Part shown: positions 25,974 to 50,224 of the stretch, one piece after another | Layout of the letters: every line of letters begins with the position of its first letter | Position numbering within the stretch: position 1 is the first letter of the stretch | The notes under the pieces: generated by a model | The model's database searches: none | What the model saw: only the letters and a program-made list of their open reading frames with translations | Told to the model about the DNA's origin: nothing | Origin: Crambe crambe | Taxonomy: Eukaryota > Porifera > Demospongiae > Poecilosclerida > Crambeidae | DNA length: 64,000 nt | Direction: 5' to 3' | Assembly (NCBI GenBank): GCA_963924555.1 | Contig: OZ004595.1 | Location: 1,984,001-2,048,000, forward strand | Program-made: the position numbers and the translations under genes

Positions 25974-26191
25974 TTCTTCCCCTCCCCCCTTCCGTGCGCG
26001 CGCAAGAGCCTGGGACGTGGCTAACCACCTACTCGATCAAGTCGGTGGGCGGTGCTATGCCAGACTAAGATGAAAACGGCGATTTTTGAAGTCGCTGTAA
26101 AATGATACTGCTTTGTTCTCTGCTCTGAGTCCTAGCACAGTCTTCAAGTTAGGAGTTACTGACTGCAGGAGGTAAGTATTCTGGAGTTATG

Positions 26192-26312
26192 AAAGAAAAT
26201 ATTAAGTACATGGAGCTTCCGTGCCATCCCTACTTAGAGAGTACTATCGTGCTCTCTGATACAATTTCAATGAGTCATGACCTGAGAGTCAGCTCGCTCG
26301 CTGCAATTATTT
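26192..26312. repeat. Dispersed repeat with CAGCGAGCGAGCTGACTCTC core
   Basis: The block running from GCCATCCCTACTTAGAGAGT to the inverted CAGCGAGCGAGC core contains a small hairpin (AGAGAGTACTATCGTGCTCTCT). The same unit occurs at 49869-49960, 53262-53312 (partial), 55525-55580 (partial) and 63447-63530, in both orientations: a family of small mobile repeats. Confidence 0.75.
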
Positions 26313-26556
26313 ATCTGTTGGGTGTGTTTTGTAAATCTGCGTTAATTGTGCTGTGCGTTTTATGAGGAAATAAACAAACAAACAACAAAAATATGGAGCA
26401 CAAAAGCCAATAAAATTTTTTTGTCATATTGGAGGTTTTTAACCAGCATAATTATGTTTCTTCATCATCCACAAATTCTTCGACAGCTGCACAGCAAGAG
26501 GAAAGCTTAGGAGCACAGAATTGTAGTACTGTGATTCAATGGCCATTGTACTAAAC

Positions 26557-27394
26557 CATAGATATTAGACACGGAACAGGATTGGAAACTTAATAGCTAC
26601 TACCATGCGCGTGCTATCCGTGTTTGCCGGGAAATATTGGCGCGAGATACGAATGCATAGTTACCACATACATAGTTAAGAATGAGTTCTGCAAAAGATA
26701 TCAGAGCAGATATTAGTCTAGTAGCTTAATATTAGCTAAGCTGGAGTGTTTTCATGTTGTGTTTTATAAAAATAATAAAATTTAATATGAGACTAGATCT
26801 AGCTAGATAGTACAAATCTATGAGAGATTCAGTATCTCAAGTTTTGAAAGATGAAGAGTTTAGTCTTCCTCTCCAGCCATCTATAGATGCCTGTTCTTGT
26901 GCAGAGAGCTTCATGGAGTGGATAATAAAACATGATAATGCAAATAAATAATAGAAATGTAATAATAATAATTTAACCCGTAGTTTAATATATCATCCAA
27001 TAGACAAACTATTATACTACTAAAAGATACCAAACACTTGACTTCTAAATTTATGTGAGTCCTGTTCTAATCCCACAAATTGGTAAGCCTATAAAATCTT
27101 TAGCAACATATCCTACACCAAAAACAGTTATTATACTCTTTATTTCAGTCTATTCCAGTAAGAAACTTTACCCTCCAGACATCTATAGGAGAAAATTGCT
27201 ACAAAAGCACTTGCACTCGTAGTTCTAGTCCCACAAAGTCTGTACCTCTCTTCCTCAGAAAATGTATTGCGACGATAGGGCTAAATTTTCTATGGTTACA
27301 ACGCGGATAGCATGCGCGAAATGTATTAGCTTAATGGGCGTGACGTCACATGACGTAGGAAGTTTCCAATCCTGTTTCGTGTCTAATATCTATG
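26557..27394. mobile_element. DNA transposon with CATAGATAT ends and 7-bp target duplication (left arm)
   Basis: The ends are inverted repeats of about 37 bp: CATAGATATTAGACACGGAA ... at 26557 and its complement ending at 27394. Directly flanking are two copies of ACTAAAC (26550-26556 and 27395-27401). The 838-bp interior has no coding frame. Shares the GG-ATTGGAAAC end motif with elements at 57032 and 58989. Confidence 0.85.
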
Positions 27395-27649
27395 ACTAAA
27401 CTGAGCAGCTGCAACTTTACTAATTTTTTAAAAGTGAAAATTTATAAGGCAAAAAAGAGGACCCTGCAGGGAAACCTAACCTTCCTTACCAATGGTGTAA
27501 GAAGATGGTTTAGGGCTGAGGCATGCTACCCAATGAAATTTGGATTTTAAACTGCACTCTGAGGGTGTGGTCTCTCCTGAGATGGCCGGGGGGAGGGTCT
27601 GCTTCTTACATCATCTGGGGGGTGGGGGGCAGGGGAAGCTTCCCCCCCC

Positions 27650-27691
27650 CCTCCCAAACAGCTCAACTTCTCCTCCTCCCTCCCCCCTCCC

Positions 27692-27746
<55 letters not shown>

Positions 27747-28002
27747 GGTATAAATATTTTATAAGCTACTCCCTTTGGTGACCACAGTAGTCACCCACCA
27801 AAAGGAGCAATTAAGGACCAATTTGAGATACTTCAGAGTAGTAAGCATTTTGGCTTCATGCTTCATGTGAGAGGTGACACATCCTCCTCCCGCACTCTCC
27901 CCCTTGCTGTGGCCTACGGCCATGCAATCGGTGAGTTTCCCCCTAGATGAAACTCTGACAGTGCTTACAGTGATGGAGGAGGAGGAGGAGGAGGAGGAGG
28001 AG

Positions 28003-28085
<83 letters not shown>
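27650..28085. repeat. Poly-C run and (GGA)n-(GA)n microsatellite
   Basis: A C run of roughly 50-60 bp (about 27690-27744) is followed, after a stretch sharing the TAGATGAAACTCTGACAG end of the 18245 MITE family (near 27945-27962), by GGA triplets (27975-28006) and a GA run to 28085. Both runs are shorter in the right arm. Confidence 0.9.
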
Positions 28086-28090
<5 letters not shown>

Positions 28091-28754
28091 TTGCATGATG
28101 GATGCAAAATTGTTTCACCAGTACTGGTGAAAATAATTCTATCTAGCTATGCCAAGATCAATTCTAACTTGTGTGTCATCCTTCACTACCTTATTTTTGA
28201 TGACTTTGAACAGTGGGTATAGAGGTGAGGCTACAACACCAACTGTATCATCACAATCATCACACTTGACTCTTCTTCAAGTCCTTTGTTTTGATGGAGA
28301 AGACATTATGAAATTGATCTTTGAATCCCAAAATGAGCCCAAATAAAAAATCGATGGAATTACCCCACTCTACCTTAGTAGCTTATCAGTGACTTGCTAT
28401 TTCACTTTGCAAGCACAAGGCATACCTGATCTAGTTAAATACTTCATTCTATCTGTTTGTAAGGACACTTTTCCAAAATATTTTCGACAATGACATGAAT
28501 GATTCCCTTTGATACAATCAGCCTTAATGAGGTAACAATATCATGTAGCAATTACTTGCTAGGCCTGCAAGTGGTCAGGTATCCAAGTGTCTACTTATAT
28601 CACTGTGGTTCCAAATTAGTGTCCTGTGGTTGTCATAAGTTTATAGCTACTGTTCGGAGTCAGTTAAATCATTCCAGTGACTATTATACTCAGTTTACAA
28701 TAGACACCTCTGCTCCGCCATAAACAAATTTAAGAATGGAATTATAAAGTTACA

Positions 28755-28962
28755 AGGTATGAAAACAAAGCACGCATAAATACATGTTATATGCAAAATA
28801 TACTACCTACTCACTACATGTTTTAAGTTACAAGGTATGAAAACAAAGCACGCATAATATATACTACCTACTCACTACATTTAAGTTACAAGGTATGAAA
28901 ACAAAGCACGCATAAATACATATTATATGCAAAATATACTACCTACTCACTACATGTTTTAC
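28755..28962. repeat. Tandem repeat, about three units of 55-110 bp
   Basis: Each unit has AAGTTACAAGGTATGAAAAC, AAAGCACGCATAA and ATACTACCTACTCACTACAT. The counterpart in the right arm is 47285-47520. Confidence 0.85.
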
Positions 28963-29018
28963 CAATGATATTATTGTCACTAGTTACTCACAAAATGTGG
29001 CTTTTCATTTTTTTTTCT

Positions 29019-30488
29019 TCATTGAGCTGCAAAAGTAAAAGAACATGTATGATATATAGTGGCATGAATAGCTACTACTAAGAGGTCATGAATATCAATC
29101 ATAAATAGTAAGTTGTCTCTCTCTCACACACTCTCCATTATATGGGGCAACCCACCTGCTGAAAGTCAAAGGTAGCTATAGTGTTGAAAAAAGTTCTGGA
29201 GCATGTTAAAACTTAACATGTAGCTACTGAGAAAAGGCACAACAACAAAAGGGAAGCCCTTTAGCTATACAACTGTAGGCATCCGGCAAGTTTTTATGAC
29301 TATAACAGCAAAACATCATGATGCCATACCTGAGTTAGTCTTAAGGCTCTTTACAACTGCTTTCAATAATTCGCCATTTTTATCTCCACCTAGTTCCCAT
29401 ACCATTGCACCAGCATTATCACGACTTTTAATATACTCGCACTTAGCACGAATCGATTCAATGTTATCAAAAGTTATCAACACTTTTTTGGACTCTTGGT
29501 AGATGTAGACTGCTGCTGCATTAGGATCATATTGGGCCGTTGAAACGTCCTGAATATCCTTGTAATCAATGCGCATTGAGTTTGATGACTGCTTATCGAA
29601 AAGTTCATTAAGTCCATTACTCTCTACATTACCACTTCCAACATCACCGAACTGCTGACCATAAAAGGCAAGACCTATGTAAAGCTTTTTCTCAGAAACA
29701 CCAAATTCCAGTAGAGCCTTAGTAGATGTTTTAATATCAGGTAAGGGGGTGTTGAAGCCTGTATGCTTACTCCATACTGCACCACTGTACTCATATGAAA
29801 GGAGACTGTAATAATCCACTAGATCATTTAAAGATGTGTAATCAAGAGAGCTCACCCTTTCTGGTATTCGAAAAATTGTCACACCTATCACTTTGTCGAT
29901 TGCATTGCGCATAGCTCGCACAAGGTCAACATAGTGTGCTGCATCTGTTTTATTTAATAATTTTTTATATTCCCAGTCGATATCCACACCATCAAATTTA
30001 TATTCCTCCATCAAATCTTTTAATGATGAAGCGAAACTCTTTCGTCCCTCTGGAGTTTTAGATGCAAATTTGAAATTGTAAGAATGTTCATATCCACCAA
30101 CAGAGATAAGAATCTTGACACCTTTACTTTGTAACTTTTTAAGCTCTTCTAAATTGTCTTCTAGTCTTCTTTTATTTTGTTCATCAAGACTAACTGTGCC
30201 ATCTTTATTTGGATATGCAAATGCGAAAATAACATAATCAACATCGTTAGTATACAAAGCTTGCAAGTTGCCAGTATTGAAATAAGCAATAATCTTTTTC
30301 TCACAACCTAAAATAAAGAATATCAACATCTTTACATAAGGACAAACATTTTTAGGTACCTGTTTCCGCTTCATCAAGATTACGTTTAAGAAGCTGAACA
30401 TTTTTCTCTAACTCAGCCAGTGTGTTTTGCACATGCTGGTCAAGTGCAACAACGCTGCAAGCAGAAGCAACAGCGCAGCAAACTTCAT
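29019..30488 (-). CDS. GH18 chitinase-like protein (left arm copy)
   Basis: Glycoside hydrolase family 18 enzymes cleave chitin beta-1,4 bonds. Exon two (30307-29330) encodes the TIM barrel: KKIIAYFNTGNLQALYTNDV, VDYVIFAFAYPNKDGTVSLD, ILISVGGYEHSYNF, the catalytic FDGVDIDWEY with all of DxxDxDxE intact, YSLLSYEYSGAVW, LYIGLAFYGQQFG and NAGAMVWELGGD. Exon one (30488-30360) opens MKFAALLLLLAALLHLTS, a good signal peptide, but that frame stops at 30411-30413 (TAG), while the in-phase lead to the barrel (ALDQHVQNTLAELEKNVQLL, a short heptad helix) is in another frame, so the exon seems frameshifted. The intron is only 52 bp. A final exon at 29026 adds two residues and a TGA, so this arm's C-terminus (SLKTNSAQ) differs from that of the right arm. 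Confidence 0.8.
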
Positions 30489-30835
30489 TTTTTAGGTTAA
30501 TGTGTAGCTGGAAAATAAGTGGATTCTACAGTTGGTTCCAGCCATGCCATGTAGGAAGTTGTAATGTGAACCTGTAATACTTACTACGAAGCACTTAGAT
30601 AACTACCAGACCCACAAACAACTAAGATATAAGCCAATGCACTTTGTAGGCTTGCCTATCATCTTCAGAAATGTCTAGTTTCACGGGCCAGACTCGATTC
30701 TTTCCTTTTTCTTGGAAAGAAAGAGTCATGCATTGGACGTTTCGTTTGTGCCGACTCAGCATCATAGGGGTAGCGTGGGCATTGCGTTTTGACTATGACG
30801 TACCATGACGAAACATTAAACAGCCAATAAAACTA

Positions 30836-30981
30836 CAGTGGATTTACGGTCCGTAAGAATATTCCGTATGCCGTACATGGGAAGCGTATGCTTTGTGCGT
30901 GAATACATTTTTATTGAAAAAAAAGGCATAAGTTTCTCGTATACAGCATACAGAATATTCGAACGGAGCGTAAATCCACTG
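30836..30981. mobile_element. MITE, CAGTGGATTTACG ends, TA duplication (left arm)
   Basis: 146 bp, almost entirely an inverted repeat, bounded by CAGTGGATTTACGG and CGTAAATCCACTG and flanked by TA (30834-30835, 30982-30983). Typical of Tc1/mariner MITEs. The right-arm copy is at 45319-45455. Confidence 0.85.
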
Positions 30982-30989
30982 TACTGTGA

Positions 30990-32580
30990 CGTATGCTCCG
31001 GTTTGTGCAAAAGCCAGTCATCAGGCTTTTGCACAGGAAAAAAAAAATTTATTATACAGAAAAATATATATTATACAGAAAAAAAAAAGTCATCAGGCGC
31101 GTCATCTGTAAACCGACTACTACGCATGCGTACTGTTTGTTAACTTTTAAAATTGCGCCGAATTTGGAGGGAAATAAGCCTTGCTGGTGATTGTTTCAGT
31201 CTTTGGTGTACAATTAACCTTTTCCAGTGAGCATTTTGCAAGATTCCCGCAAACCGGAGTAGTGACGTTTAAAAATTCCCACTGCCTTCTCCTGCCCCAC
31301 TGGAGGTTATCCATCCATCAGACATAATGAGATTCGGGACTTCACTGCACATCTCCTTTCAGAAGTTGGTAATAGAGCCACATCTCCAGCCATTATAAGG
31401 TGAAGCCCTCCACAATCAATCATCAAATCGTCAGAGTTGAGTACGCTTAGACATTGCTGCCGATGGCTTCTGGGGAAGTAGGCACGAGAGAGCTTTCTTT
31501 GATGTATGGGCTCCCTCAAACCGAAACTCCAAATTGCTACAGATCTCATGAAAATGCAAAGAAAAGATCTTATGATCAACGAATCAGAGAAGTTGAACAT
31601 GGCTCTTTCACTCCCCTCATTTTGTCTTGCACTGGTGGCATGGGACGTGCTGCCGTAAACACATACAAGAGACTGGCCGCTCTTATCTCAACAAAAAGAG
31701 ATGATACATACAGTAATACCATGGGGTGGATCCAATGTCGTCTCTCATTCTCTCTGCTACGTGCAGCTATCATGTGCAAATGTAAATTGTTACTATATTT
31801 AACCATAATTTACTGCAGTATCCGGACATATGTGGACGAGCCTACCACGTGCTAAGCTATATTTTACATACCCCTTTGGCTTCCAAAACCGTGTAGTTCT
31901 GCACATGCAGTTATCCGGGAGAAAAACGGGAAATATCCAGCTCATGAATATTCATTGTCAGCATGTCGGCACTATCAGTAAAAAAAAATCTCAGAAAACA
32001 ATAGAACGATCTGATAAGCCCTTTGATTCAAGTGCTTTCGCTTTGAAGAAGCTTTGATGTTAGCTTTGAGGACTTTTTTTTTTTGAAAGTACTAGCTAGA
32101 CATGCATGCCTATGCTTGCCTATGTAGCCAATAGTGGCCTGGTGGCTTTAGCTGGAGAAGAAGCGGCTGAAACGGGTGACTTTTACAGCTCGAGCTGCTG
32201 GTTAGGTTGCCATGGGGATGATGGATGACGTAGAATTCGCTTTTCCGTGTCGATTCGTTCATGAAGACAAAGAGAGACAGCTGCCGAAGTCAAAGGGTTA
32301 GTCCGGTTTTCGGGAATCTTGCAAAAATGCTGAGTGTGCATTCTCGCGCATGCTCGTCGTTGAGCCTCGAAAAATCTCACTGGAGAAGATTAATTGTACA
32401 CCAAAGGTTAGAAGTATACTAGAACAGTCACCAGCTAGCTCTTCATGGCTTATTTGAAGTTACTTCTCTCCAAATTCGAGCGCAATTTCAAAAGTTCAAA
32501 CAGTACGCATGCGTAGTAGTCGATTTTACGGATGACGCCTGACGACTGGCTTTTGCAAGATTCCCGCAAACCGGAGTATA
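30990..32580. mobile_element. Foldback element with long, gapped inverted ends (left arm)
   Basis: The stretch from about 30993 (ATGCTCCGGTTTG.., GGCTTTTGCAC, ACTACTACGCATGCGTACTG, ATTGCGCCGAATTTGGAG, CTGGTGATTG, TTTGGTGTACAATTAA) recurs inverted from 32580 back to about 32380. The ends are therefore about 200-250 bp. The interior holds a retroelement fragment (31320-31790). The paired element in the right arm (about 39215-45305) is split by the gypsy insertion. Confidence 0.7.
31320..31790 (+). pseudogene. Fragment of a retroelement-type protein C-terminus
   Basis: Frames reading EIRDFTAHLLSEVGN, then ADGFWGSRHERAFFDVWAPS, then KKRSYDQRIREVEHGSFTPL, ILSCTGGMGRAAVNTYKRLA and MGWIQCRLSFSLLRAAIMC match a C-terminal segment common in cnidarian and sponge multicopy retroelement-like proteins (a likely restriction-nuclease-like fold with the FFDVRV strand). 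Stops and frameshifts interrupt it, and nothing upstream (no reverse transcriptase) is present. Confidence 0.65.
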
Positions 32581-32811
32581 CGGAGCATCGGAAATTGCAT
32601 GCCCTCTCGCCGCTTCGCGGCTTGATGTGAACCCGCCGGCAGGTATCAAAAGCATAATAAAGGCATGAAGTGTGGATTTTAAATCCACCAATTATTTGCC
32701 ACACAGGTCAAGGTGCAGAACTAGAATGTAGCTAAGTTTATTCCTTCATGGCTGCATGCCATTTGTTATTGTAGCTAATAAGGTACGATAGCAAATAAAA
32801 ATCTATAGTTA

Positions 32812-33094
32812 GGCCAGTGTTAATGACAATGACATTCATGTTTCTGATCAGGATTTTTTCTCAGAACCATGCAGGCGGGTGGTAGTTATTATCCATTATA
32901 CCAGTCATTATTATTCACATCAAAAATGTCCTTTTTAGCCATAAATCATCACAAGTACAAGCACTTTAAGTCTGCAGCAGCTCAGCTGAATAGCTGTATA
33001 GCTAATTGATGTAATAATGACATCTTGGAGTGCATGATGCCAATTTTCCAATGCAGGTGGTTGGCCAGAAACATGAATATTATTAACACTGGCC
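32812..33094. mobile_element. MITE with GGCCAGTGTTAAT ends (left arm)
   Basis: Inverted ends GGCCAGTGTTAATGA... / ...TATTAACACTGGCC with a second paired block (CATGTTTCTG / CAGAAACATG). Flanked by TTA on both sides. The right-arm copy is 38743-38971. Confidence 0.75.
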
Positions 33095-33357
33095 TTATGG
33101 AAAGATTATTCGTACATTTAAAAGCATGCCTTCATGCCTTTCTTTAATCCTTACCTTTTTCAGCCATATCAATAGTGTTGAGACTTTTCTGTATAGAAGA
33201 CTTTTGCCTATTAGAAACTGGCTATATTTACACAGGTTTGTATTGATAATCAGCAGCACTGAAATTTTTCTGCAGATTAATCCCTTTATGTACTGAATGG
33301 ATAAGGTCAGGCAGTATGAATGCAATGTTCTTAGCACCCCGCAGATTCTTCAAGAGC

Positions 33358-33595
33358 ATGATGTCACGATCCACCCATAGAATACGAACTTGATGAATAA
33401 AAAAATGTCATGAATTCATGATCCACCCCACAGAATACGAATGGATACGAATAAATAAAAGATCACCCCATAGAATGCAAATGATAGTCATGATCTACCC
33501 CATGCACAGAATATAAATGAATGTCATGATCCACCTGGACAAAGTCACGATCTACCCATGGGTTCGAATATGAAGAATGTCATGATGGTATTCAT
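33358..33595. repeat. 30-35-bp minisatellite (left arm)
   Basis: About seven imperfect units built on CATGATCCACCCCACAGAAT plus A-rich spacers, with variants CGATCTACCC and GATCACCCC. Part of it is inverted in the right arm (see findings). Confidence 0.8.
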
Positions 33596-33739
33596 CTAGA
33601 TGGTCACAGTGACATGGCACATCCCATAAAATGTTATGAAGACAAGATATACTTCAGAGTGTAGAATAAGAAGTTGATGCAGTCATACATATAGCTAGTT
33701 AGCTTGAAATTTACAAATTCAGTCCAGCATCAATACCAA

Positions 33740-34680
33740 GCATGTTTCGTCCTTCCATAAAACTGCATAAAAACAAAACCATTCTATACACTGTTTTAAT
33801 AACCATACCTTAGGTTGATATCTCTCTGTGTTTAGTCTGATCTCTTCTTTTAAGTAGTTATCATAGTCCTCATCCATTTGCTTGTAGCAAGACATATTAT
33901 AATTATGTACTCCTGGACCCATGCATGATCCACGTAGTAGCTATTACCTCTGTTGTTCCAATTTTAGCACATCAATTTCCAAGTCCTTCTGAACTAATCT
34001 CTTTTTCTCTGAAACCTAGATCACAGCATGTTAGCTAATAATGATCACAAGTACAGAACCAGGCAGAGTAATGTTGAGATAATCACTGTGCGATGTACCT
34101 TAATCCTGTTTTCTTTTTCCCCTCCCTCATCTGGCTCTCCCTAGCAGTTATTCAATTGGCTAGCTCAATATCAACATAGTAACTCCTTGCGTCTTTGTAT
34201 AGACTCAGCCTGCATAGAGCCATGAAATCAAGGTATCAGTATCTCCTATACTCTAAAAAGTATCCTATACCTGTTGTTCCTGATCACTTCCATTCTTGCT
34301 TCTATCTGCTTGTGTTGGTTTGAGGAATGTGGGCACTAAGAGATACAGATCAGGAAAACACTTATGTGTACATATATACCCATTTTGAATACATGATGAC
34401 AGAAACAGATAGAAGCAAGAATGGAGGCAATCAAAGAACAATAGGTATAGGATACTTTTTCAGAGGGGGAGGAGAGGGGAGAGGAGGAGTATCATACAAG
34501 GATCTTGTGAATTGTATTCATGGCTATGTATATTAGCTATATGCAGGCTGAGTTTATACAAAGACGTGAGGAGTTACTACATGATATTGAACTGCATGTG
34601 GCCAATTAAATGACTTCTATAGGGAGAGTCAGATGAGGGAGAGGGAAAAGAAAAACAGGATTAAAGAACTGGCAGAATAA
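33740..34680. pseudogene. Coiled-coil exon remnants, partly in inverted duplicate (left arm)
   Basis: Minus-strand pieces encode MSCYKQMDEDYDNYLKEEIR (ending at a splice site near 33809) and SEKKRLVQKDLEIDVLKLEQ (about 33945-34020). At 34100-34330 (minus) and 34390-34680 (plus) are head-to-head copies of exons reading I-E-A-R-M-E, AEFIQRREELLHDIELHVAN and MREREKKNRIKELAE. The charged, heptad-like composition and flanking AG/GT signals suggest exons of a coiled-coil protein. I do not recognise the protein, and some copies carry stops. Confidence 0.5.
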
Positions 34681-34751
34681 CTTCATTAATCAAAATATCC
34701 ATTATACATAGTGAAACCTCTGATATAAAAGGACACTCCTAAAGAGAACAA

Positions 34752-34808
<57 letters not shown>
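34752..34808. repeat. (CT)n microsatellite
   Basis: About 55 bp of CT. Counterparts of different length at 37041-37096 and 54617-54712 mark the three copies of this segment. Confidence 0.95.
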
Positions 34809-34811
<3 letters not shown>

Positions 34812-35890
34812 AAAACAACATATATAACAGGGCTGTAGCCAGGATTTTAGAAAAGGGGTGGCTGAAGGGTATCTGTGCACATGTGTGCAGAAAATTTTCA
34901 CGGCCATGCCAAACCACACTCACTGATGTTTTGCAAGCAGATATGAGGCAGGCAGGGAAATTATGAGGATGGTAGCTACCACTTCTTCACTATAAATAAA
35001 AGGACTTGTACATTAGAAAATTGTCAGATCATATGGCCCCTATGTCAGACGATGCCATGTCATACATTGTTCTGGCCAGCCAGGCTAAAGGAGAGCAGCG
35101 GTATACACAAACACACATCTTCAATTCTGTGGAATGTACCCTAAGTGCTCACCACAAAAACCTCAGGAGAGTGTGTAGCTATAATGCCTGTAGTTGATGG
35201 GTTTAGTCTGGCCCTTGATGTGTCTGGTCTCTCGAGGAACTAACTCAAATGACCCATTCAGTGATCAGTGCTTGTGGCAACTGAACATGAATGGTGTTAA
35301 GGACTTGCATACGGTTAGGGTCTGCAACGTGAAAAATCAACATTTAAGTTTTGGACAAACTACTACTGTAGCACGAAGAGTTCATTGATACTTAAACAAT
35401 CGCACCTTGAATGTTGAGATTTGTGTCCTGTCACACAGGATAAGGCGGAGAATGTCAATTCTGCTGAGTCAGCATTACATAGGTCATAGGTCAAATTCAA
35501 AATTCAAATTTTTGGCAAGTTTTGTGCCTGCTCTTTCCAGGAGGACCTGCTTTTAGCTCTTTGATTGCTAGAATTGCCGTGAAGTCCCTTTTTGCCGGTT
35601 GAGGTACGACAGGATCAGTTACTACAGGTAAGCCAGCGTAGTGACAAGATCGCTCAATGTTGGATTTGGAGGGGCTTGACATGAGTAACACATCATGTAA
35701 ATAGGGTAGAGCTTTGGCGTTCCTTGCCATCTGGCTGGCATGCCAGCAGTTGATTGTGTGTGTGTGTGTGTGTTTACTGTCCTGGCCTGAATTTCAATTG
35801 CAGTGAACGATCCTGGTGCTAGAATGAGTCAGCCCACCTACAGTGAGCTCATCCAGCTACTTAGTGAAGCTGAGACGACATGCAGTCAAC

Positions 35891-37037: not shown

Positions 37038-37039
<2 letters not shown>

Positions 37040-40609: not shown

Positions 40610-40825
40610 TGTGATGTTCTCCAATAGTATCACAATGTTAATTAGCAATAACTTCTTATTATTCAGCTGACAGTATAAACTATTGACAAAAATCAGATCA
40701 AACCAGCCAGCGACTGGAAGTGATACAGAGGTTAAATAAGCTAGAGCTAAGAGCTATAGCGCAATGCGCTAGCTGGACAAAACACAATACTGAGCATGCT
40801 CATAAAATGTTCCAAAGTTACCACA
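40610..40825 (-). repeat. 3' LTR of the gypsy element
   Basis: 216 bp, TG...CA termini. It is at the 3' end because the element is transcribed leftward. Confidence 0.95.
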
Positions 40826-40854
40826 CTCCTCCCCACTAAGCATACAAGTCACAC

Positions 40855-43800
40855 TCACTGGTACCATTCAGGAGGGTGCCTAATTCGGGTAGGGTAACGT
40901 GGAGGTGGTGGTTCAGGGTTCTCCAACTCTATAGCAGTGGAGGATGAGGGTCGTGTGCCAGGGTCAGGAGGCTCAGCATGAGATCCTGAAGGGGTCGGTG
41001 GAGGATCACTGACAGGTACATCAACTTCTGGAGGTGGATCCTCTGCATGTGGTTCATCAGGGAAATCCCCTGTAGTAGGTTCTGAAGAAGTGGGTAAGGG
41101 GTCTTCATCGTCAACAGCAACCTCTCTGTCAGAGCCACTCTGGACAGAGTTAGGCAACCCACGAAACTCTTTCAAGTGGTCCAGATGTCTCCGCCACATC
41201 TGATGATCAGCTGTTTCCACCAAATATGAAACAGGTCCCAGTCTCTCAACAACAATTGCTGGCACCCAGTCTTGTCCAGGACGAAAATTCTGAACCATGA
41301 CACTCTGTCCTACAAGGAACTCTCGACATTGAGCTCTCCGGTCGTGAACAGCTTTCTGCTGTGCCTGCTTTTCCACAACACAGGCTTCCAGATTCGGACG
41401 AAGCAGATCAAGTCGAGTGCGAAGGGGACGATGAAGAAACAGCGAACAGGGGGAAACCCCAGTTGTTGCATGAGGCGAACTGCGATAGGTGAGTAAGTAG
41501 CTGAGCAATCTTTCGGAGAGTGATTTTCCACTATTAACACTGGCCTTGAGAGCCAACTTCACCGACTGCACAAACCGTTCCGCTAAGCCATTGGTGGCTG
41601 GGTGGTAGGGGGCACTCCTGATGTGTCTGATGCCATTCAGTTTCGAAAACAATGCAAATTCCTCAGACAGGAACTGTGGCCCATTGTCAGTGACCAGTTG
41701 CTCAGGCAATCCGAAAGTAGCGAACATCTTCCTGAGAACATCAATGGTTTTGGCAGCCGTTGTACTGTGCATGATCTCAACCTCCGGCCACTTTGAGTGG
41801 GCGTCGACAGCAACGAGCAGCATGACCCCTTGGAAGGGACCGGCAAAGTCAAGATGCACCCGCTGCCATGGTTTCGCAGGCCAGGACCATGGATACATTG
41901 GGGCCACGGCAGGTGCATGTTTCACGGCCTGACACGACTGACAGCTCTTCACCAAGTCTTGGATTGACTTATCCAGACCCGGCCACCACAGGTATCCACG
42001 TGCAACGGCCTTCATCCGGCTGATGCCAGGGTGGTCTCTATGGAGTTCTTCTAACAGCTTCTGCTGAAGTTTCCCTGGAATAACTGTGCGTACTCCCCAG
42101 AGCACACAATCTTGTTCCACCGTGAATTCTTGTCTGTGTAACCAGTAGGGGCGTAGTGACGCATCAAATTTCTTCGGCCATCCTCCCCTCGTAAAACGAA
42201 GGACTTTGCTCAGGATATTGTCTGTACGAGTAGCTGCTTGAAGTTGTTTCACTGTCACAGGTAAACTCTCTAGCTGAGATATATTGAAGACAGATGGTTC
42301 TGACGAAGCACCTTCTCGAGTGACTTCCTGCAGCGGCAGGCGTGACAACCCATCAGCGTTGGCATGCTGACCAGTGGGACGGAACTCTATATGGTATGTA
42401 TAGGCAGATAGTATCAGTGCCCAACGTTGTAGGCGAGCTGCAGCAAGGGTAGGGATACCCTGCTTTGGTCCCAAGATGGTTATAAGTGGTTTGTGGTCAG
42501 TTGTGAGAGTAAACTGTCTCCCATACAAATAGGCGTGGAACTTTTTAACACCAAAGACCAACGACAAGGCTTCTTTCTCCACCTGAGCATAATTACGCTC
42601 ACTGCTTGACAAGGTTCGGGAAGCAAAAGCGATCGGGCGTTCTGAGCCATCCTCCATTACATGTGAGATCACTGCTCCCACTCCATAAGCGGAGGCATCA
42701 CCTGCAAGTTTAAGAGGAAGATTAGGATTATAGTGTATCAAAACCTTGGAGGATGTCAAGGCTTCCTTGGCTTGGTTAAAGGCTTTCTGGCAACCCGAGG
42801 ACCACTTCCATGGACAACCCTTGCACAACAGCTTGTGTAAGGGGTGGAGCAATGATGCCAAATTGGGTATAAACCGGCCATAATAGTTTAAAAGCCCCAA
42901 AAATGACCGCAACTCCTGCACATTCCGGGGTGGGGGTGCTTCTGCTATGGCACGGAGTTTGTCATTGGTGGCGTGCAACCCTTCTCGATCCACACGATGT
43001 CCGAGATATTCAACACTGGCTTCTAAAAATCGGCACTTGTCTCTTCGTAGCCGCACACCATGCTCCCTCAACCGACACAGCACCTCCTCAAGATGGGCGA
43101 GGTGTTCCGCAGGGGTAGCACCTGTAATCAGGATATCATCAAGATAACAAGTCACCTTACCTAGGCCCTGCAACAGAGTGTCCATCGTCTTTTGGAACAC
43201 AGCGGGCGCTGAGGCAATTCCAAATGGCAGTCTGCGATACCGATAGAGTCCTCGATGGGTATTGATGGTGACCAAATGTCGGGATTGCTCCTCAAGAACG
43301 AGTTGGTTATATGCATGGGACAAGTCCAGTGTGGTGAACTGTTGTCCCCCAGCGAGGGTGGCAAACAAGTCTTCCGGCTTGGGTAGGGGATACTGATCAA
43401 CCTCTAACACGGGATTGACGGTAACTTTGTAATCCCCACAAATTCTGACTTGGCCGTCCTTCTTAGGGACTGCCACGATTGGTGCCGCCCACTCACTGTG
43501 GTCAATCTTCTCGATGACTCCTTGTGCTTCGAGACGATCCAATTCTTCTTCCACAGCACTTCTCAGAGCATAGGGCACGGGCCTAGCCCTACAGAACTTG
43601 GGTCGAGCTCCTGAGGACACAGATAGCTTTGCAGTGAAGGGTTGAATAGTTCCAAGATCATCTGCAAATACGTCTTTGCTCTTGTCCAGAACATCCTGCA
43701 AGGCCTGCTCACGAGATAGTGATCCAATAGATGCCCAATTAAGTGTGATATGCTTGAGCCAATTTCGACCTAAGAGAGCAGGTCCCTCACCTCGAACTAT

Positions 43801-44883
43801 AGTCAGGTCTAGCTCCCGAGGCAACTGCTGTTCGTACTGCACCAACACAGGATACGTCCCAATCACAGCCATGGCTTCTCCAGTATACGTACGTAGTACC
43901 ATGTTGGACTTACGTAACTTGGCCTTAGGAAACATCTTCCTAAACACTCCCTCAGGGAGGAGGGACACGGCAGCACCAGTGTCTAACTCCATGGTCAACG
44001 GCTTCCCTGAAATTCGAAGTTCAATTCGGATCGGGTGAGAAGAATTTCCTCCAATCGAGAAAGTTCCCAGATCCTCCGATTCACTCTGAGTAGATTCGAG
44101 ATAGCGGACATCATTGTGACCTCGACCAGCTGATTTCTTGCTCCGGCAAGTAGGGGCAATGTGGCCAACCTTGCCACATTTATGGCAAGTAGCTGATTTG
44201 AATTTACAGTCCTTGCCTTCATGGCCCTTCCTGCCACATCTAAAACAAGGCTTCCCTTTGACTTGGGCGGAGCCTTTCATAGTATTTGTGGTTGACAGCT
44301 GCAAAACTCCAGACATTGTGGTCGGACCTTGGCCTTTCAAGTTTCGGGCGTCTCTAGCAGCAGTCTCCTTAGCTTGAGCTTTCTCTACAGCCTTAGCCAG
44401 GGTCAGTCCTTCTTCAGCTAACAAGCTCTTCTGGGTTTGTTCCGACTTGAGCCCACAGACAAATTTATCTCGGAGCGCCTGGTCCAGAAAAGTGCCAAAA
44501 TCACAGGTAATGGCGAGTCGTCGTAATTCTGCCACATAGTCTAGCACCGATTCAGTAGGCCCTTTGTTCCTTTGGTAGAAACGAAAACGTTCGGCAATTA
44601 TCAGGGGTTTGGGCAGGAAATGATCTGTCAGCACAGTCACAAGATCCGCGAAAGTCTTGTCCTGCGGTAAAGCTGGAGCTACAAGGCTTCTGATGATACC
44701 GTAGTTCTTGGTACCTATCTCTGTCAGCAACACAGAAACCTTCTTGCCATCTCCGATGTCATTTGCCGCGAAGTACAAAGACACTCTCTCCAGATAAGTG
44801 GAGATGTTCTCAGCTTCTGGGTCGAATGCTGTCAGCTGACCGTAGATCGGTACTCTTGTGTGAGCCATCAGATCCCGTCTCAT
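40855..44883 (-). CDS. Gypsy Gag-Pol polyprotein
   Basis: One uninterrupted frame of 1342 residues encodes all retrotransposition functions of the element. Order: Gag capsid-like region (about 1-190); two CCHC zinc knuckles near 212-245 (CFRCGRKGHEGKDC and CHKCGKVGHIAPTC); aspartic protease with DTGA near 298; reverse transcriptase with VPKKDG, LPFGIASAPAVFQ and YLDDILIT near 580; RNase H region near 725-840 (GDASAYGVGAV, TDHKPL); integrase with an HHCC finger (H-x3-H ... C-x2-C near 950-985) and a DDE core (LDFAGPF, TDNGPQF near 1063, NGLAERFVQ); then a Pro/Glu-rich tail. Gag and Pol are in a single frame without shift. The integrase and RT resemble the widespread K02A2.6-like gypsy proteins. 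No disabling mutation is visible, so the element may be active. Confidence 0.95.
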   Translation of the reverse strand: MRRDLMAHTRVPIYGQLTAFDPEAENISTYLERVSLYFAANDIGDGKKVSVLLTEIGTKNYGIIRSLVAPALPQDKTFADLVTVLTDHFLPKPLIIAERFRFYQRNKGPTESVLDYVAELRRLAITCDFGTFLDQALRDKFVCGLKSEQTQKSLLAEEGLTLAKAVEKAQAKETAARDARNLKGQGPTTMSGVLQLSTTNTMKGSAQVKGKPCFRCGRKGHEGKDCKFKSATCHKCGKVGHIAPTCRSKKSAGRGHNDVRYLESTQSESEDLGTFSIGGNSSHPIRIELRISGKPLTMELDTGAAVSLLPEGVFRKMFPKAKLRKSNMVLRTYTGEAMAVIGTYPVLVQYEQQLPRELDLTIVRGEGPALLGRNWLKHITLNWASIGSLSREQALQDVLDKSKDVFADDLGTIQPFTAKLSVSSGARPKFCRARPVPYALRSAVEEELDRLEAQGVIEKIDHSEWAAPIVAVPKKDGQVRICGDYKVTVNPVLEVDQYPLPKPEDLFATLAGGQQFTTLDLSHAYNQLVLEEQSRHLVTINTHRGLYRYRRLPFGIASAPAVFQKTMDTLLQGLGKVTCYLDDILITGATPAEHLAHLEEVLCRLREHGVRLRRDKCRFLEASVEYLGHRVDREGLHATNDKLRAIAEAPPPRNVQELRSFLGLLNYYGRFIPNLASLLHPLHKLLCKGCPWKWSSGCQKAFNQAKEALTSSKVLIHYNPNLPLKLAGDASAYGVGAVISHVMEDGSERPIAFASRTLSSSERNYAQVEKEALSLVFGVKKFHAYLYGRQFTLTTDHKPLITILGPKQGIPTLAAARLQRWALILSAYTYHIEFRPTGQHANADGLSRLPLQEVTREGASSEPSVFNISQLESLPVTVKQLQAATRTDNILSKVLRFTRGGWPKKFDASLRPYWLHRQEFTVEQDCVLWGVRTVIPGKLQQKLLEELHRDHPGISRMKAVARGYLWWPGLDKSIQDLVKSCQSCQAVKHAPAVAPMYPWSWPAKPWQRVHLDFAGPFQGVMLLVAVDAHSKWPEVEIMHSTTAAKTIDVLRKMFATFGLPEQLVTDNGPQFLSEEFALFSKLNGIRHIRSAPYHPATNGLAERFVQSVKLALKASVNSGKSLSERLLSYLLTYRSSPHATTGVSPCSLFLHRPLRTRLDLLRPNLEACVVEKQAQQKAVHDRRAQCREFLVGQSVMVQNFRPGQDWVPAIVVERLGPVSYLVETADHQMWRRHLDHLKEFRGLPNSVQSGSDREVAVDDEDPLPTSSEPTTGDFPDEPHAEDPPPEVDVPVSDPPPTPSGSHAEPPDPGTRPSSSTAIELENPEPPPPRYPTRIRHPPEWYQ

Positions 44884-44890
44884 CGCCAGA

Positions 44891-45106
44891 TGTGATGTTC
44901 TCCAATAGTATCACAATGTTAATTAGCAATAACTTCTTATTATTCAGCTGACAGTATAAACTATTGACAAAAATCAGATCAAACCAGCCAGCGACTGGAA
45001 GTGATACAGAGGTTAAATAAGCTAGAGCTAAGAGCTATAGCGCAATGCGCTAGCTGGACAAAACACAATACTGAGCATGCTCATAAAATGTTCCAAAGTT
45101 ACCACA
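44891..45106 (-). repeat. 5' LTR of the gypsy element
   Basis: 216 bp, no difference from the 3' LTR found by reading the two side by side. It should contain the element's promoter. Confidence 0.95.
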
Positions 45107-45318
45107 ACAATCACCAGCAAGGCTTATTTCCCTCCAAATTCGGCGCAATTTTAAAAGTTAACAAACAGTACGCATGCGTAGTAGTCGGTTTACAGATGAC
45201 GCGCCTGATGACTTTTTTTTTCTGTATAATATATATTTTTCTGTATAATAAATTTTTTTTTTCCTGTGCAAAAGCCTGATGACTGGCTTTTGCACAAACC
45301 GGAGCATACGTCACAGTA

Positions 45319-45455
45319 CAGTGGATTTACGCTCCATTCGAATATTCTGTATGCTGTATACGAGAAGCTTATGCCTTTTTTTTTCAATAAAAATGTATTC
45401 ACGCACAAAGCATACGCTTCCCATGTACGGCATACGGAATATTCTTAATCCACTG
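45319..45455. mobile_element. MITE, CAGTGGATTTACG ends (right arm)
   Basis: Counterpart of 30836-30981. It lacks about nine bases (ACGGTCCGT-type segment) near the right end and keeps the flanking TA. Confidence 0.8.
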
Positions 45456-45814
45456 TAGTTTTATTGGCTGTTTAATGTTTCGTCATGGTATGTCATAGTC
45501 AAAACGCAATGCCCACGCTACCCCTATGATGCTGAGTCGGCACAAACGAAACGTCCAATGCATGACTCTTTCTTTCCAAGAAAAAGGAAAGAATCGAGTC
45601 TGGCCCGTGAAACTAGACATTTCTGAAGATGATAGGCAAGCCTACAAAGTGCATTGGCTTATATCTTAGTTGTTTGTGGGTCTGGTAGTTATCTAAGTCC
45701 TTCGTAGTAAGTATTACAGGTTCACATTACAACTTCCTACATGGCATATGTAGCCGCCTGGCTGGAACCAACTGTAGAATCCACTTATTTTCCAGCTACA
45801 CATTAACCTAAAAA

Positions 45815-47280
45815 ATGAAGTTTGCTGCGCTGTTGCTTCTGCTTGCAACGTTGTTGCACTTGACCAGCATGTGCAAAACACACTGGCTGAGTTAGAGAAA
45901 AATGTTCAGCTTCTTAAACGTAATCTTGATGAAGCGGAAACAGGTACCTAAAATGTTTGTCCTTATGTAAAGATATTGATATTCTTTATTTTAGGTTGTG
46001 AGAAAAAGATTATTGCTTATTTCAATACTGGCAACTTGCAAGCTTTGTATACTGACGATGTTGATTATGTTATTTTCGCATTTGCATATCCAAATGAAGA
46101 TGGCACAGTTAGTCTTGATGAACAAAATAAAAGAAGACTAGAAGACAATTTAGAAGAGCTTAAAAAGTTACAAAGTAAAGGTGTCAAGATTCTTATCTCT
46201 GTTGGTGGATATGAACATTCTTACAATTTCAAACTTGCATCTGCAACTCCAGAGGGACAAAAGAGTTTCGCTTCATCATTAAAAGATTTGATGGAGGAAT
46301 ATCAATTTGATGGTGTGGATATCGACTGGGAATATAAAAAAAAAGAAGATGCAGCACACTATGTTGACCTTGTGCGAGCTACGCGTAAAGCAATCGACAA
46401 AGTGATAGGTGTGACAATTTTTCGAATACCAGAAAGGGTGGGCTCTCTTGATTACACATCTTTAAATGGTCTAGTGGATTATTACAGTCTCCTTTCATAT
46501 GAGTACAGTGGTGCAGTATGGAGTAGGCGTACAGGCTTCAACACCCCCTTACCTGATATTAAAACATCTACTGAGGCTCTACTGGAATTTGGTGTTTCTA
46601 AGGAAAAGCTTTACCTAGGTCTTGCCTTTTATGGTCAGCAGTTCGGTGATGTTAATGTAGAGAGTAATGGATTTAATCACCCTTTCGATAAGCAGTCATC
46701 AAACTCAATGCGCATTGATTACAAGGATATTCAGGACGTTTCAACGGCCCAATATGATCCTAATGCAGCAGCAGTCTACATCTACCAAGAGTCCATAAAA
46801 GTGTTGACAACTTTTGATAACATTGAATCGATTCGTGCTAAGTGCGAGTATATTAAAAGTCTTGATAATGCTGGTGCAATGGTATGGGAACTAGGTGGAG
46901 ATAAAAATGGCGAATTATTGAAAGCAGTTGTCAGGTATGGCATCATGATGTTTTACTGTTATAGTCATAAAAACTTGCCGGATGCCTACAGTTGTATAGC
47001 TAAAGGGCTTCCCTTTTGTTGTTGTGCCTTTTCTCAGTAGCTACATGTTAAGTTTTAACATGCTCCAGAACTTTTTTCAACACTATAGCTACCTTTGACT
47101 TTCAGCAGGTGGGTTGCCCCATATAATGGAGAGTGTGTGAGAGAGAGACAACTTACTATTTATGATTGATATTCATGACCTCTTAGTAGTAGCTATTCAT
47201 GCCACTATATATCATACATGTTCTTTTACTTTTGCAGCTCAATGAAGGAAAAAAAAAGAAAAGCCACATTTTGTGAGTAA
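45815..47280 (+). CDS. GH18 chitinase-like protein (right arm copy)
   Basis: Same gene as 29019-30488 in opposite orientation. Exon one 45815-45943, exon two 45995-46934, exon three 47238-47280. The barrel is complete: KKIIAYFNTGNLQALYTDDV, ISVGGYEHSYNF, catalytic FDGVDIDWEY, YSLLSYEYSGAVW and AGAMVWELGGD. Relative to the left copy it is missing a few residues (KLLNKT and GSG segments) and has scattered substitutions, all of which keep the frame. It also lacks a 14-bp stretch before the last donor, so exon three is read in another frame (SSMKEKKRKATFCE, then TAA). Exon one again has the signal-peptide frame (MKFAALLLLLATLLHLTS) closing at a TAG at 45890-45892, with the ALDQHVQ lead in a different frame. 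Function as a secreted chitinase is supported by the catalytic motif, but the start is unresolved. Confidence 0.8.
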
Positions 47281-47284
47281 CTAG

Positions 47285-47520
47285 TGACAATATTGGTAAA
47301 ACATGTAGTGAGTAGGTAGTATATTTTGCATATAATATGTATTTATGCGTGCTTTGTTTTCATACCTTGTAACTTAATGTAGTGAGTAGGTAGTATATTT
47401 TGCATATTATGCGTGCTTTGTTTTCATACCTTGTAACTTAAAACATGTAGTGAGTAGGTAGTATATTTTGCATATAACATGTATTTATGCGTGCTTTGTT
47501 TTCATACCTTGTAACTTTAT
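47285..47520. repeat. Tandem repeat (right arm)
   Basis: Counterpart of 28755-28962, units around GTAGTGAGTAGGTAGTATAT and GCGTGCTTTGTTTTCATACC. Confidence 0.85.
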
Positions 47521-48157
47521 AATTCCATTCTTAAATTTGTTTATGGCGGAGCAACAGGTGTAATAGTCACTGGAATGATTTAACTGACTCCGAACAGTAG
47601 CTATAAATTTATGACAACCACAGGACACTAATTTGGAACCACAGTGATATAAGTAGACACTTGGATACCTGACCACTTGCAGGCCTAGCAAGTAATTGCT
47701 ACATGATATTGTTACCTCATTAAGGCTGATTGTATCAAAGGGAATCATTCATGTCATTGTCGAAAATATTTTGGAAAAGTGTCCTTACAAACAGATAGAA
47801 TGAAGTATTTAACTAGATCAGGTATGCCTTGTGCTTGCAAAGTGAAATAGCAAGTCACTGATAAAGCTACTAAGGTAGAGTGGGGTAATTCCATCAATTT
47901 TTTATTTGGGCTCATTTTGGGATTCAAAGATCAATTTCATAATGTCTTCTCCATCAAAACAAAGGACTTGAAGAAGAGTCAAGTGTGATGATTGTGATGA
48001 TACAGTTGGTGTTGTAGCCTCACCTCTATACCCACTGTTCAAAGTCATCAAAAATAAGGTAGTGAAGGATGACACACAAGTTAGAATTGATCTTGGCATA
48101 GCTAGATAGAATTATTTTCACCAGTACTGGTGAAACAATTTTGCATCCATCATGCAA

Positions 48158-48159
<2 letters not shown>

Positions 48160-48235
<76 letters not shown>

Positions 48236-48565
48236 CTCCATCACTGTAAGCACTGTCAGAGTTTCATCTAGGGGGAAGCTCACCGATTGCATGGCCGTAG
48301 GCCACAGCAAGGGGGAGAGTGCGGGAGGAGGATGTGTCACCTCTCACATGAAGCATGAAGCCAAAATGCTTACTACTCTGAAGTATCTCAAATTGGTCCT
48401 TAATTGCTCCTTTTGGTGGGTGACTACTGTGGTCACCAAAGGGAATAGCTTATAAAATATTTATACCTTGGGGGGGGGGGGGGGGGGGGAGGGGGGGGGG
48501 AGGGAGGAGGAGAAGTTGAGCTGTTTGGGGGGGGGGGGGAAGCTTCCCCTGCCCCCCACCCCCCA
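48160..48565. repeat. (CT)n and poly-G runs (right arm)
   Basis: CT run 48162-48232, G-rich run 48470-48540. Both are shorter and more interrupted than in the left arm, and the GGA triplet part is almost lost. Confidence 0.9.
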
Positions 48566-48786
48566 GATGATGTAAGAAGCAGACCCTCCCCCCGGCCATC
48601 TCAGGAGAGACCACACCCTCAGAGTGCAGTTTAAAATCCAAATTTCATTGGGTAGCATGCCTCAGCCCTAAACCATCTTCTTACACCATTGGTAAGGAAG
48701 GTTAGGTTTCCCTGCAGGGTCCTCTTTTTTGCCTTATAAATTTTCACTTTTAAAAAATTAGTAAAGTTGCAGCTGCTCAGTTTAGT

Positions 48787-49624
48787 CATAGATATTAGAC
48801 ACGAAACAGGATTGGAAACTTCCTACGTCATGTGACGTCACGCCCATTAAGCTAATACATTTCGCGCATGCTATCCGCGTTGTAACCATAGAAAATTTAG
48901 CCCTATTGTCGCAATACATTTTCTGAGGAAGAGAGGTACAGACTTTGTGGGACTAGAGCTACGAGTGCAAGTACTTTTGTAGCAATTTTCTCCTATAGAA
49001 GTTTGGAAGGTAAAGTTTCTTACTGGAATAAACTGAAATAAAGAGTGTAGTAATTGTTCTTGGTGTAGGATATGTTGCTAAAGATTTTATAGGCCTACCA
49101 ATTTGTGGGATTAGAACAGGACTCACATAAATTTAGAAGTCAAGTGTTTGGTATCTTTTAGTAGTATAATAGTTTGTCTATTGGATGATATATTAAACTA
49201 CGGGTTAAATTATTATTATTACATTTCTATTATTTATTTGCATTATCATGTTTTATTATCCACTCCATGAAGCTCTCTGCACAAGAACAGGCATCTATAG
49301 ATGGCTGGAGAGGAAGACTAAACTCTTCATCTTTCAAAACTTGAGATACTGAATCTCTCATAGATTTGTACTATCTAGCTAGATCTAGTCTCATATTAAA
49401 TTTTATTATTTTTATAAAACACAACATGAAAACACTCCAGCTTAGCTAATATTAAGCTACTAGACTAATATCTGCTCTGATATCTTTTGCAGAACTCATT
49501 CTTAACTACGTATGTATGTGGTAACCATGCATTCATATCTCGCGCCAATTTTTCCCGGCAAACACGGATAGCACGCGCATGGTAGTATTAAGTTTCCAAT
49601 CCTGTTCCGTGTCTAATATCTATG
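48787..49624. mobile_element. DNA transposon with CATAGATAT ends and 7-bp target duplication (right arm)
   Basis: 838 bp, inverted counterpart of 26557-27394, flanked by GTTTAGT at 48780-48786 and 49625-49631, the complement of the left-arm duplication. The insertion therefore predates the palindrome. Confidence 0.85.
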
Positions 49625-50224
49625 GTTTAGTACAATGGCCATTGAATCACAGTACTATAATTCTGTGCTCCTAAGCTTTCCTCTTGCTGTGCAACTGTCG
49701 AAGAATTTGTGGATGATGAAGAAACATAATTATGCTGGTTAAAAACCTCCAATATGACAAAGAAATTTTATTGGCTTTTGTGCTCCATATTTTTGTTGTT
49801 TGTTTGTTTATTTCCTCATAAAACGCACAGCACAATTAACGCAGATTTACAAAACACACCCAACAGATAAATAATTGCAGCGAGCGAGCTGACTCTCAGG
49901 TCATGACTCATTGAAATTGTATCAGAGAGTACGATAGTACTCTCTAAGTAGGGATGGCACGGAAGCTCCATTGTACTTAATATTTTCTTTCATAACTCCA
50001 GAATACTTACCTCCTGCAGTCAGTAACTCCTAACTTGAAGACTGTGCTAGGACTCAAATATGAAGAGCAGAGAACAAAGCAGTATCATTTTACAGCGACT
50101 TCAAAAATCGCCGTTTTCATCTTAGTCTGGCATAGCACCGCCCACCGACTTGATCGAGTAGGTGGTTAGCCTCGTCCGACGTCCCCAGGCTCTTGCGCGC
50201 GCACGGAAGGGGGGAGGGGAAGAA

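Follow-up and report, generated by a model that had tools for sequence, protein, structure and literature searches.

A probable inverted duplication with exchange between copies in an amplified GH18 chitinase cluster of the sponge Crambe crambe

Comparison with described palindromes and inverted duplications

The ampliconic palindromes of the primate Y chromosome undergo gene conversion from arm to arm and are about 99.9% identical between the arms throughout. Inverted duplications are also formed by fold-back in human DNA. One study (PMC3907307) describes an unduplicated spacer, with 2–8 bp of inverted microhomology at 13 of the 21 sequenced junctions; the spacers span 766 bp to 70 kb and occur with terminal deletions, translocations or rings. 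A second study (PMC4689423) links ODIRA and fold-back tandem inverted duplication to short interrupted inverted repeats.

The palindrome described here is located in a stretch of 64,000 nucleotides (the window) from chromosome 15 of the sponge Crambe crambe, assembly odCraCram1.1; coordinates of this chromosome are labelled C18. Like the Y palindromes, it has inverted gene-bearing arms, a short spacer, multicopy genes and exchange between copies. The arms are, however, smaller, the locus is on one of 18 chromosomes and this is not known as a sex chromosome, and the chitinase exon diverges rather than being homogenised. The inner part of the arms (33575–35899 and 35937–38223) has one substitution in 2289 alignment columns, whereas the outer part has 88 in 7859 (1.1%, about 356 columns being counted twice); identity of about 99.9% does not hold throughout and this is not a Y-type palindrome. 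With the human fold-back duplications, the locus shares an unduplicated spacer and short inverted microhomology (5 bp in Crambe), but the Crambe loop is 44 bp long and the event interstitial. In contrast to ODIRA, the Crambe cluster has no clean inverted triplication. Overall, we consider the palindrome likely to be a real inverted duplication within an amplified GH18 chitinase cluster, with exchange between copies and a diversifying chitinase domain.

Arms and centre of the palindrome

When the window is compared with itself, the inverted pair of the original prediction appears, running in order from 25974 and 50224 inward to the centre. The left arm (25974–35891, plus strand; unit X1) has its inverted match in the right arm (35947–50224, minus strand; unit X2), which is split by an LTR element. 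The spacer is short as predicted, although it measures 55 bp (35892–35946) and not 57 bp. Together with the perfect inner arms, 137 bp each (35755–35891 and 35947–36083), it occupies 35755–36083. The expected differences between the arms are present: substitutions (about 1%, mostly in the outer part), a 52-bp indel (34449–34500) with several smaller ones, and a 20-bp deletion that alters the C-terminal end of the X2 chitinase. A piece of about 180 bp (33408–33585 and 38214–38395) is direct and not inverted between the arms, having been inverted in one of them, and lies where the near-identical inner part gives way to the outer part with its 1.1% divergence. A global alignment of the inner part adds a second substitution, adjoining a microsatellite.

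The predicted gypsy insertion is found in the right arm only (40610–45106, minus strand) and is a Ty3/gypsy-type LTR retrotransposon. Its LTRs are identical (216 bp, TG..CA ends), and the target-site duplication ACAAT is located at 40605–40609 and 45107–45111. Pfam matches to protease, reverse transcriptase, RNase H and integrase follow in that order on the minus strand, on separate pieces, reverse transcriptase thus preceding integrase; the gag match (23.2 bits) is just under the Pfam cut-off of 24.1.

At the centre (35892–35946), GCTGA (35892–35896) and TCAGC (35941–35945) close a loop of 44 bp (35897–35940), followed by an extra A at 35946. This is a single junction with 5 bp of inverted microhomology and one extra base; the chance of a 5-bp match at two offsets is about 0.002. 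A related sequence on chromosome 2 (C3:473195–473601, about 84% identical) comprises the loop and one arm and is a dispersed relative, not the same locus. It is collinear with the left arm and loop up to C3:473195, where it departs exactly at the turn-back point of the window, and no inverted partner was seen at the C3 locus. Because this relative has the loop and a single arm, in the same arm-then-loop order, the left arm looks ancestral and its orientation is probably the original one. The relationship had raised the idea that the centre is a palindromic mobile element, which was rejected since the C3 copy is not palindromic.

Short inverted microhomology bounds an unduplicated spacer, and the loop exists unrearranged in a one-arm version, as for a fold-back inverted duplication. 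Judged from its sequence, the centre looks like the product of fold-back synthesis. The strand that had passed through the left arm and loop would pair via TCAGC with GCTGA 44 bases upstream, and the paired strand would then copy itself backwards to give the X1/X2 centre. A library or assembly hairpin, in which a strand is turned back on itself, could imitate this, as a chimeric fold-back read would also show short inverted microhomology and the inner 2.3 kb contain only one substitution. However, a hairpin from a single molecule has identical arms, whereas these arms differ by the 52-bp and smaller indels, the outer substitutions, the LTR element and unrelated outer flanks. A single-strand hairpin was rejected on these differences, and we regard an artefact at the centre as highly improbable. 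If formed in this way, the palindrome would still bear legible traces of its origin, namely the loop, the microhomology and an unduplicated relative, and this in an animal that branched off early.

The seven-unit array and its flanks

The arms X1 and X2 are two members of a cluster of seven chitinase units (X1–X7), which lie in both orientations over about 154 kb (C18 2.010–2.164 Mb), five of them outside the window. The inverted pair of the original prediction therefore stands, but not its isolation, with five more units nearby and flanks duplicated on both sides; the number of chitinase units in this assembly is corrected from two to seven. A protein search of the genome also gives seven GH18 loci on C18, and seven of the ten GH18 Pfam matches genome-wide are inside this cluster. 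The domain exons are open over 311–317 codons in all seven units, and none of the seven GH18 domain matches contains a stop. No comparable sponge chitinase cluster was found in the literature searched, mostly outside subscription journals, and an Rfam scan gave no match at the gathering score.

The left flank (L, 16291–25973) recurs inverted at about C18:2084843–2094550 and direct at about C18:2114900–2124599, beside X5 and X6. The farther left flank with Cys-rich genes (5566–12925) has a direct copy in several pieces, truncated at its start at C18:2096737. The right flank (56418–64000) has an inverted copy at C18:2133016–2140587 (3 mismatches in 7596 columns), the match continuing as X3/X6 with 1 mismatch in 6445, and recurs beside X3, X4 and X7. 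As the flanks are duplicated too, the outer edges given in the original prediction, 25974 and 50224, are those of a repeat unit and not of the duplicated region. A dispersed repeat of about 670 bp (25297–25970) ends at the outer edge of the left arm and has copies on at least C1, C8, C9, C10, C16 and C19, these being among the matches listed in a left-flank genome search from which the window's own place is absent. A third local copy of inner-arm sequence (54195–55524, plus strand) matches 36606–37898 with 4 mismatches in 1346 columns. The low inner-arm divergence is perhaps partly general, since one more copy of this inner-arm piece likewise differs by only 1 in 804.

Two origins had been proposed for the palindrome: either the duplication is real, or two haplotypes were joined head to head. 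Under a simple join of the latter kind, the sequence right of 50224 should be the allele, in inverted orientation, of the sequence left of 25974, but within the window these two flanks share no inverted match of at least 100 bp. With unrelated outer flanks and five more copies, this join was rejected as a full explanation, and a real inverted duplication, as part of a multicopy array, is favoured. A different join would place two haplotypes of one array in tandem: one allele would span about −10 to 94.5 kb of C18 (positions relative to 2.000 Mb), where the palindrome would remain real, and the other, carrying an inversion, would span 96.7 to about 165 kb. A partial, direct repeat of the left flank, at an offset of about 107–115 kb and with 0 to about 4% substitutions in its pieces, is what a second haplotype that escaped purging would look like, and some tracts of about 14 kb differ by 4 substitutions. 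Between about 113 and 161 kb the order agrees with an X1/X3 inversion; past about 161 kb it no longer does, and a full inversion of this kind fails there as the origin of the second stretch. The risk is real, since 18 haplotypic duplications were removed by hand in the published assembly; against it, that assembly used purge_dups, Hi-C and curation and has 0.8% duplicated BUSCO genes (Crambe crambe genome paper). A misjoin in the assembly graph needs a long identical overlap, which the junction (94557–96737) lacks; it consists of 1.4 kb unmatched elsewhere in the region compared, together with a fragment of old, diverged sequence. The beginning of the second copy is cut off within a Cys-rich gene, DuoxA and the local EMC7-like gene are missing from this copy, and the second stretch has no palindrome centre. 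The EMC7 point is weak, as a better EMC7 match is located on C20, and EMC7 was dropped as a single-copy marker against alleles. N is absent from the stretches that were read, and the remaining stretch is spanned by a contiguous match. Taken together, we find a tandem join of haplotypes unlikely. The genome paper reports 67.94 Gb in 9.82 million HiFi reads, from which we compute a mean read of about 6.9 kb; because near-identical tracts of 14 kb in the cluster exceed this length, the palindrome is on firmer ground than the order over long distances.

Returning to the favoured reading, an inverted duplication in a multicopy array, the units have also exchanged sequence. X6 matches X1 as far as about 2126341, with 1 mismatch in 3245, and X3 from 2126441, with 1 in 6445; on the other side of this abrupt switch, X3 and X6 differ by 12 mismatches in 1701 (Fisher p 7e-8). 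Across the seven units, 1197 of the 5050 informative-site pairs are incompatible with one tree, with an Rmin of 16 over 101 sites. On these alignments, the copies are recombination mosaics. The seven units, duplicated flanks, mosaic structure and spacer signature can be read from the sequence itself, and the cluster seems to have grown as units were duplicated in inverted orientation and copies exchanged sequence. The units would later have been reshuffled by gene conversion, crossing over and inversion between inverted and direct copies.

Chitinase exons and their variation

In X1 the chitinase domain exon, including the stop codon, is located at 29316–30307 on the minus strand (Pfam PF00704, E 5.2e-58, 197.6 bits; supported by splice context and stop). 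It is preceded by a likely upstream exon (30360–30454, minus strand; VVALDQ..DEAET), in which none of the 94 complete columns varies over the seven copies. The X2 exon (45995–47040, plus strand, including the stop codon; E 1.6e-56, 192.7 bits) has the deletion described above, and its likely upstream exon is at 45849–45943 on the plus strand. All seven cluster loci score above the curated GH18 cut-off of 29.6. One TAA lies within four of the seven long protein-search matches, which extend into the intron before the exon. The 5' gene model is provisional, as the nearby ATG frame hits a stop.

The catalytic motif of GH18 enzymes is DxxDxDxE. As in GH18 chitinases and chitinase-like lectins, the PF00704 domain is present and X1, X2, X4, X5 and X7 read DGVDIDWEY; X3 and X6 differ in reading DGVDINWEY, the third Asp being replaced by Asn, and the Crambe family is strongly diversified within one cluster. 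The Glu of the motif is kept in all seven copies. With the D to N change, enzymatic function may have been lost in some copies. As to a microbial origin of the chitinase, tblastn confirmed none of the 15 pattern-matching stretches from a scan of genome contigs and none of the 3 from a scan of viral contigs as a relative; with six short peptide patterns each, both scans are weak tests. AlphaFold2 models of two window proteins were of low confidence (mean pLDDT 36). The role of the chitinase proteins is a matter of guesswork: they might defend the sponge against microbes or fungi that contain chitin, keep symbionts in check, or serve in feeding.

The chitinase exon carries a disproportionate share of the differences between copies, and these for the most part alter the protein, a pattern that suggests diversifying selection. 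The exon has 58 variable columns of 936, versus 13 of 925 in the rest of the alignment (p 4e-8). Over the 317 codons of the seven copies, 47 are replacement-variable and 4 vary only silently, and variable sites fall 31/20/7 on the three codon positions (p 6e-4). For the 15 pairs of the six distinct copies (X6 was excluded, its exon being identical to that of X3), mean pN is 0.033 and mean pS 0.0067 (pN/pS about 5), and pN−pS was zero or less in none of 2000 bootstraps. A plain binomial test on 47 versus 4 gives only p 0.010, for codons that are not independent because the copies exchange sequence.

That modest value leaves some room for relaxed constraint, mutation bias or import from lost copies as the source of the amino-acid excess. 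In favour of such causes, 28 of the 58 variable exon sites are A/G and 8 C/T on the coding strand, and X3 and X6 have Asn in the catalytic motif. Relaxed constraint, however, predicts pN equal to pS and not an excess of about fivefold, and the seven domain frames remain open. At silent sites the exon changes at about the same rate as the DNA around it (0.0067 versus 0.0051). No donor for import was found in the genome, the next relative in a protein search being 38% identical over part of its length. We consider such causes quite unlikely; diversifying selection on the chitinase domain, amid nearly uniform surrounding DNA, is supported, albeit indirectly, by these comparisons.

More tentatively, the cluster could be a diversity-generating array. 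Fold-back and inverted-repeat exchange would multiply and reshuffle a chitinase or chitin-binding protein, and selection would favour new binding surfaces in one exon. Such an array would possibly be a recognition or antimicrobial repertoire of the sponge that varies between individuals or haplotypes and includes copies that lost a catalytic residue and turned into lectins. If confirmed in more individuals, diversification confined to one exon amid near-identical amplicons would bear on sponge immunity and symbiosis. With loop borders drawn by eye from the usual barrel topology, there is a hint that variation favours the loops of the barrel, which hold 22 of the 47 variable sites in 97 of the 317 positions (p 0.0085).

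Arms and centre of the palindrome

The inverted pair predicted at 25974..50224 is present in the window sequence, with a left arm (25974-35891), a right arm (35947-50224) and a spacer of 55 bp between them. The arms differ in substitutions and indels, as had been described. The inner parts (33575-35899 and 35937-38223) show one substitution in 2289 alignment columns, with one more in the global alignment beside a microsatellite; the outer parts show 88 substitutions in 7859 columns, a total in which about 356 columns occur twice. A 52-bp piece is among the indels and is present in the left arm only. An LTR element of Ty3/gypsy type (40610-45106) sits in the right arm; its 216-bp LTRs are identical, and its target duplication is ACAAT. 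As the left arm has none, the element was probably inserted once the arms already existed.

At the centre, GCTGA and TCAGC surround a 44-bp loop; a single extra A comes next, and after it the copied arm. A relative on chromosome 2 (C3; ~84% identity) shares this arm and loop but has no second arm, and its similarity to the window stops precisely at the point of reversal. Fold-back copying, in which a strand would fold back on the 5-bp repeat and then copy itself, would be expected to leave such a pattern; judged from the sequence of a single junction, the palindrome may have formed in this way. The left arm was probably the template, because the arm-then-loop order is common to it and the chromosome 2 relative. 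The 5-bp repeat can be compared with the 2-8 bp at 13 of 21 junctions of human fold-back duplications, according to passages of PMC3907307, and the centre can be likened to the short interrupted inverted repeats at which junctions are described in passages of the yeast ODIRA work (PMC4689423).

The chitinase cluster and its assembly

Searches of the 143.1-Mb assembly with the arm and the chitinase located seven units at 2.010-2.164 Mb on the chromosome 15 scaffold (C18), of which the window occupies 1984001-2048000. These units, X1 (the left arm) and X2 (the right arm) to X7, account for seven of the ten GH18 matches in the whole genome. X1, X6 and X7 are in (+) orientation and X2 to X5 in (-). 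The outer edge at 25974 is a unit edge that is fixed across copies. Beyond it, the left flank (window 16291..25973) is found at X1, X5 and X6, and the right flank (the sequence beyond 50224) at X2, X3, X4 and X7, with only ~0.6 kb at X4. A dispersed repeat of ~670 bp terminates on the left-flank side of the edge. Copies of the left flank are inverted at ~C18:2084843-2094550 and direct from ~C18:2114900. The right flank has an inverted copy at C18:2133016-2140587 (3 substitutions in 7596 columns), and this match continues as X3/X6 (1 substitution in 6445). A further partial left-flank copy (94%) lies outside the fetched region at C18:2170916-2173260, so the duplicated region reaches past 2.17 Mb.

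X6 matches X1 up to ~C18:2126341 (1 mismatch in 3245) and X3 from C18:2126441 (1 in 6445); on the other side, X3 and X6 differ at 12 in 1701. In the seven-unit alignment, no single tree accommodates 1197 of the 5050 pairs from 101 informative sites (Rmin 16). The order of the second stretch, from 113 to ~161 kb past 2.000 Mb, is that expected from an X1/X3 inversion and deviates thereafter; this stretch has no palindrome centre. The wider structure around the palindrome is an amplified, recombining chitinase cluster; amplicon clusters and fold-back duplications are already known as kinds.

The original prediction allowed either a real duplication or two haplotypes joined head to head, and as an interpretation it was right in part. 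The duplication is favoured; a simple head-to-head join of alleles would not account for the unrelated outer flanks and the further copies, and we have little doubt that the palindrome is real. According to parts of PMC12166358, the assembly (odCraCram1.1) was built from 459-fold HiFi coverage with hifiasm, purge_dups and Hi-C scaffolding, and 18 haplotypic duplications were taken out by hand. The same parts give QV 58.1, BUSCO duplicated 0.8%, 6.57 Mb for chromosome 15 (OZ004595.1) and 143,197,480 bp in 124 pieces for the published assembly; the copy analysed comprises a little less, 143,139,886 bp in 119 pieces. An alternate haplotype has also been deposited. The remaining doubt is that two haplotypes of the array were joined in tandem near 2.095 Mb. 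The left-flank tracts are collinear and sometimes identical, and the reads are short (mean ~6.9 kb, from the totals published in PMC12166358), which would suit such a join; however, compared with the rest of the fetched region, the junction does not consist of a long identical repeat, and the second copy is truncated and has neither DuoxA nor the local EMC7-like gene. We consider it likely that the order of the whole cluster is correct.

Diversification of the chitinase exon

The GH18 domain exon, located at 29316-30307 (-) in X1 and 45995-47040 (+) in X2, with its copies spread over C18:2013319-2156748, varies much more than the sequence around it, and most of the changes are replacements. 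It is this diversification, confined to one exon, that deserves follow-up. Among 317 codons in seven copies, 47 are amino-acid-variable and 4 silent-only, counts that ignore shared ancestry among the copies; the X3 and X6 exons are the same, which leaves six distinct sequences. Mean pN is 0.033 and pS 0.0067 in the exon, and the rest of the alignment has diverged by 0.0051, values that may reflect selection on the chitinase domain. Variable sites at codon positions 1, 2 and 3 number 31, 20 and 7 (p 6e-4), and a plain binomial for 47 versus 4 codons gives p 0.010, both values ignoring shared ancestry. The likely upstream exon is variable in 0 of 94 columns. X1 and X2 differ by 26 replacement changes and one silent change; they are also set apart by two indels of 3 codons each and by the altered C-terminus that had been noticed between the arms. 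In the catalytic motif of X3 and X6, Asn takes the place of the third Asp, a substitution that would be expected to harm the activity of a GH18 enzyme. At the 5' end of the chitinase, the nearby ATG frame hits a stop, and the TAA reported by the protein search in four matches sits ahead of the domain exon.

Other features of the window

Small cysteine-rich frames of one family lie at 5398-5778, 8992-9423, 9605-9892 and 16332-16910. Three of the four were scanned against Pfam; 8992-9423 matches the trypsin-inhibitor-like TIL domain, and 5398-5778 and 16332-16910 have no Pfam match. The local EMC7-like genes form a tandem pair (11204-12071 and 12848-14140), and one of the two contains stops; in the genome as a whole, C20 has the better match to EMC7. 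In the right flank, a separate palindrome of ~519 bp (51464-51980) lies at the end of a dispersed repeat of 1.8 kb that also occurs on several chromosomes. Dispersed repeats at 57028-58763 (~1.7 kb) and 58989-60088 (~1.1 kb) have many copies, mostly 96-99% identical, and are thus probably young mobile elements. Weak CARD-like (60796-61164) and Lectin_N-like (62351-63295) frames, both below the Pfam cut-off, have inverted copies that are 100% identical at C18:2.1337-2.1362 Mb.
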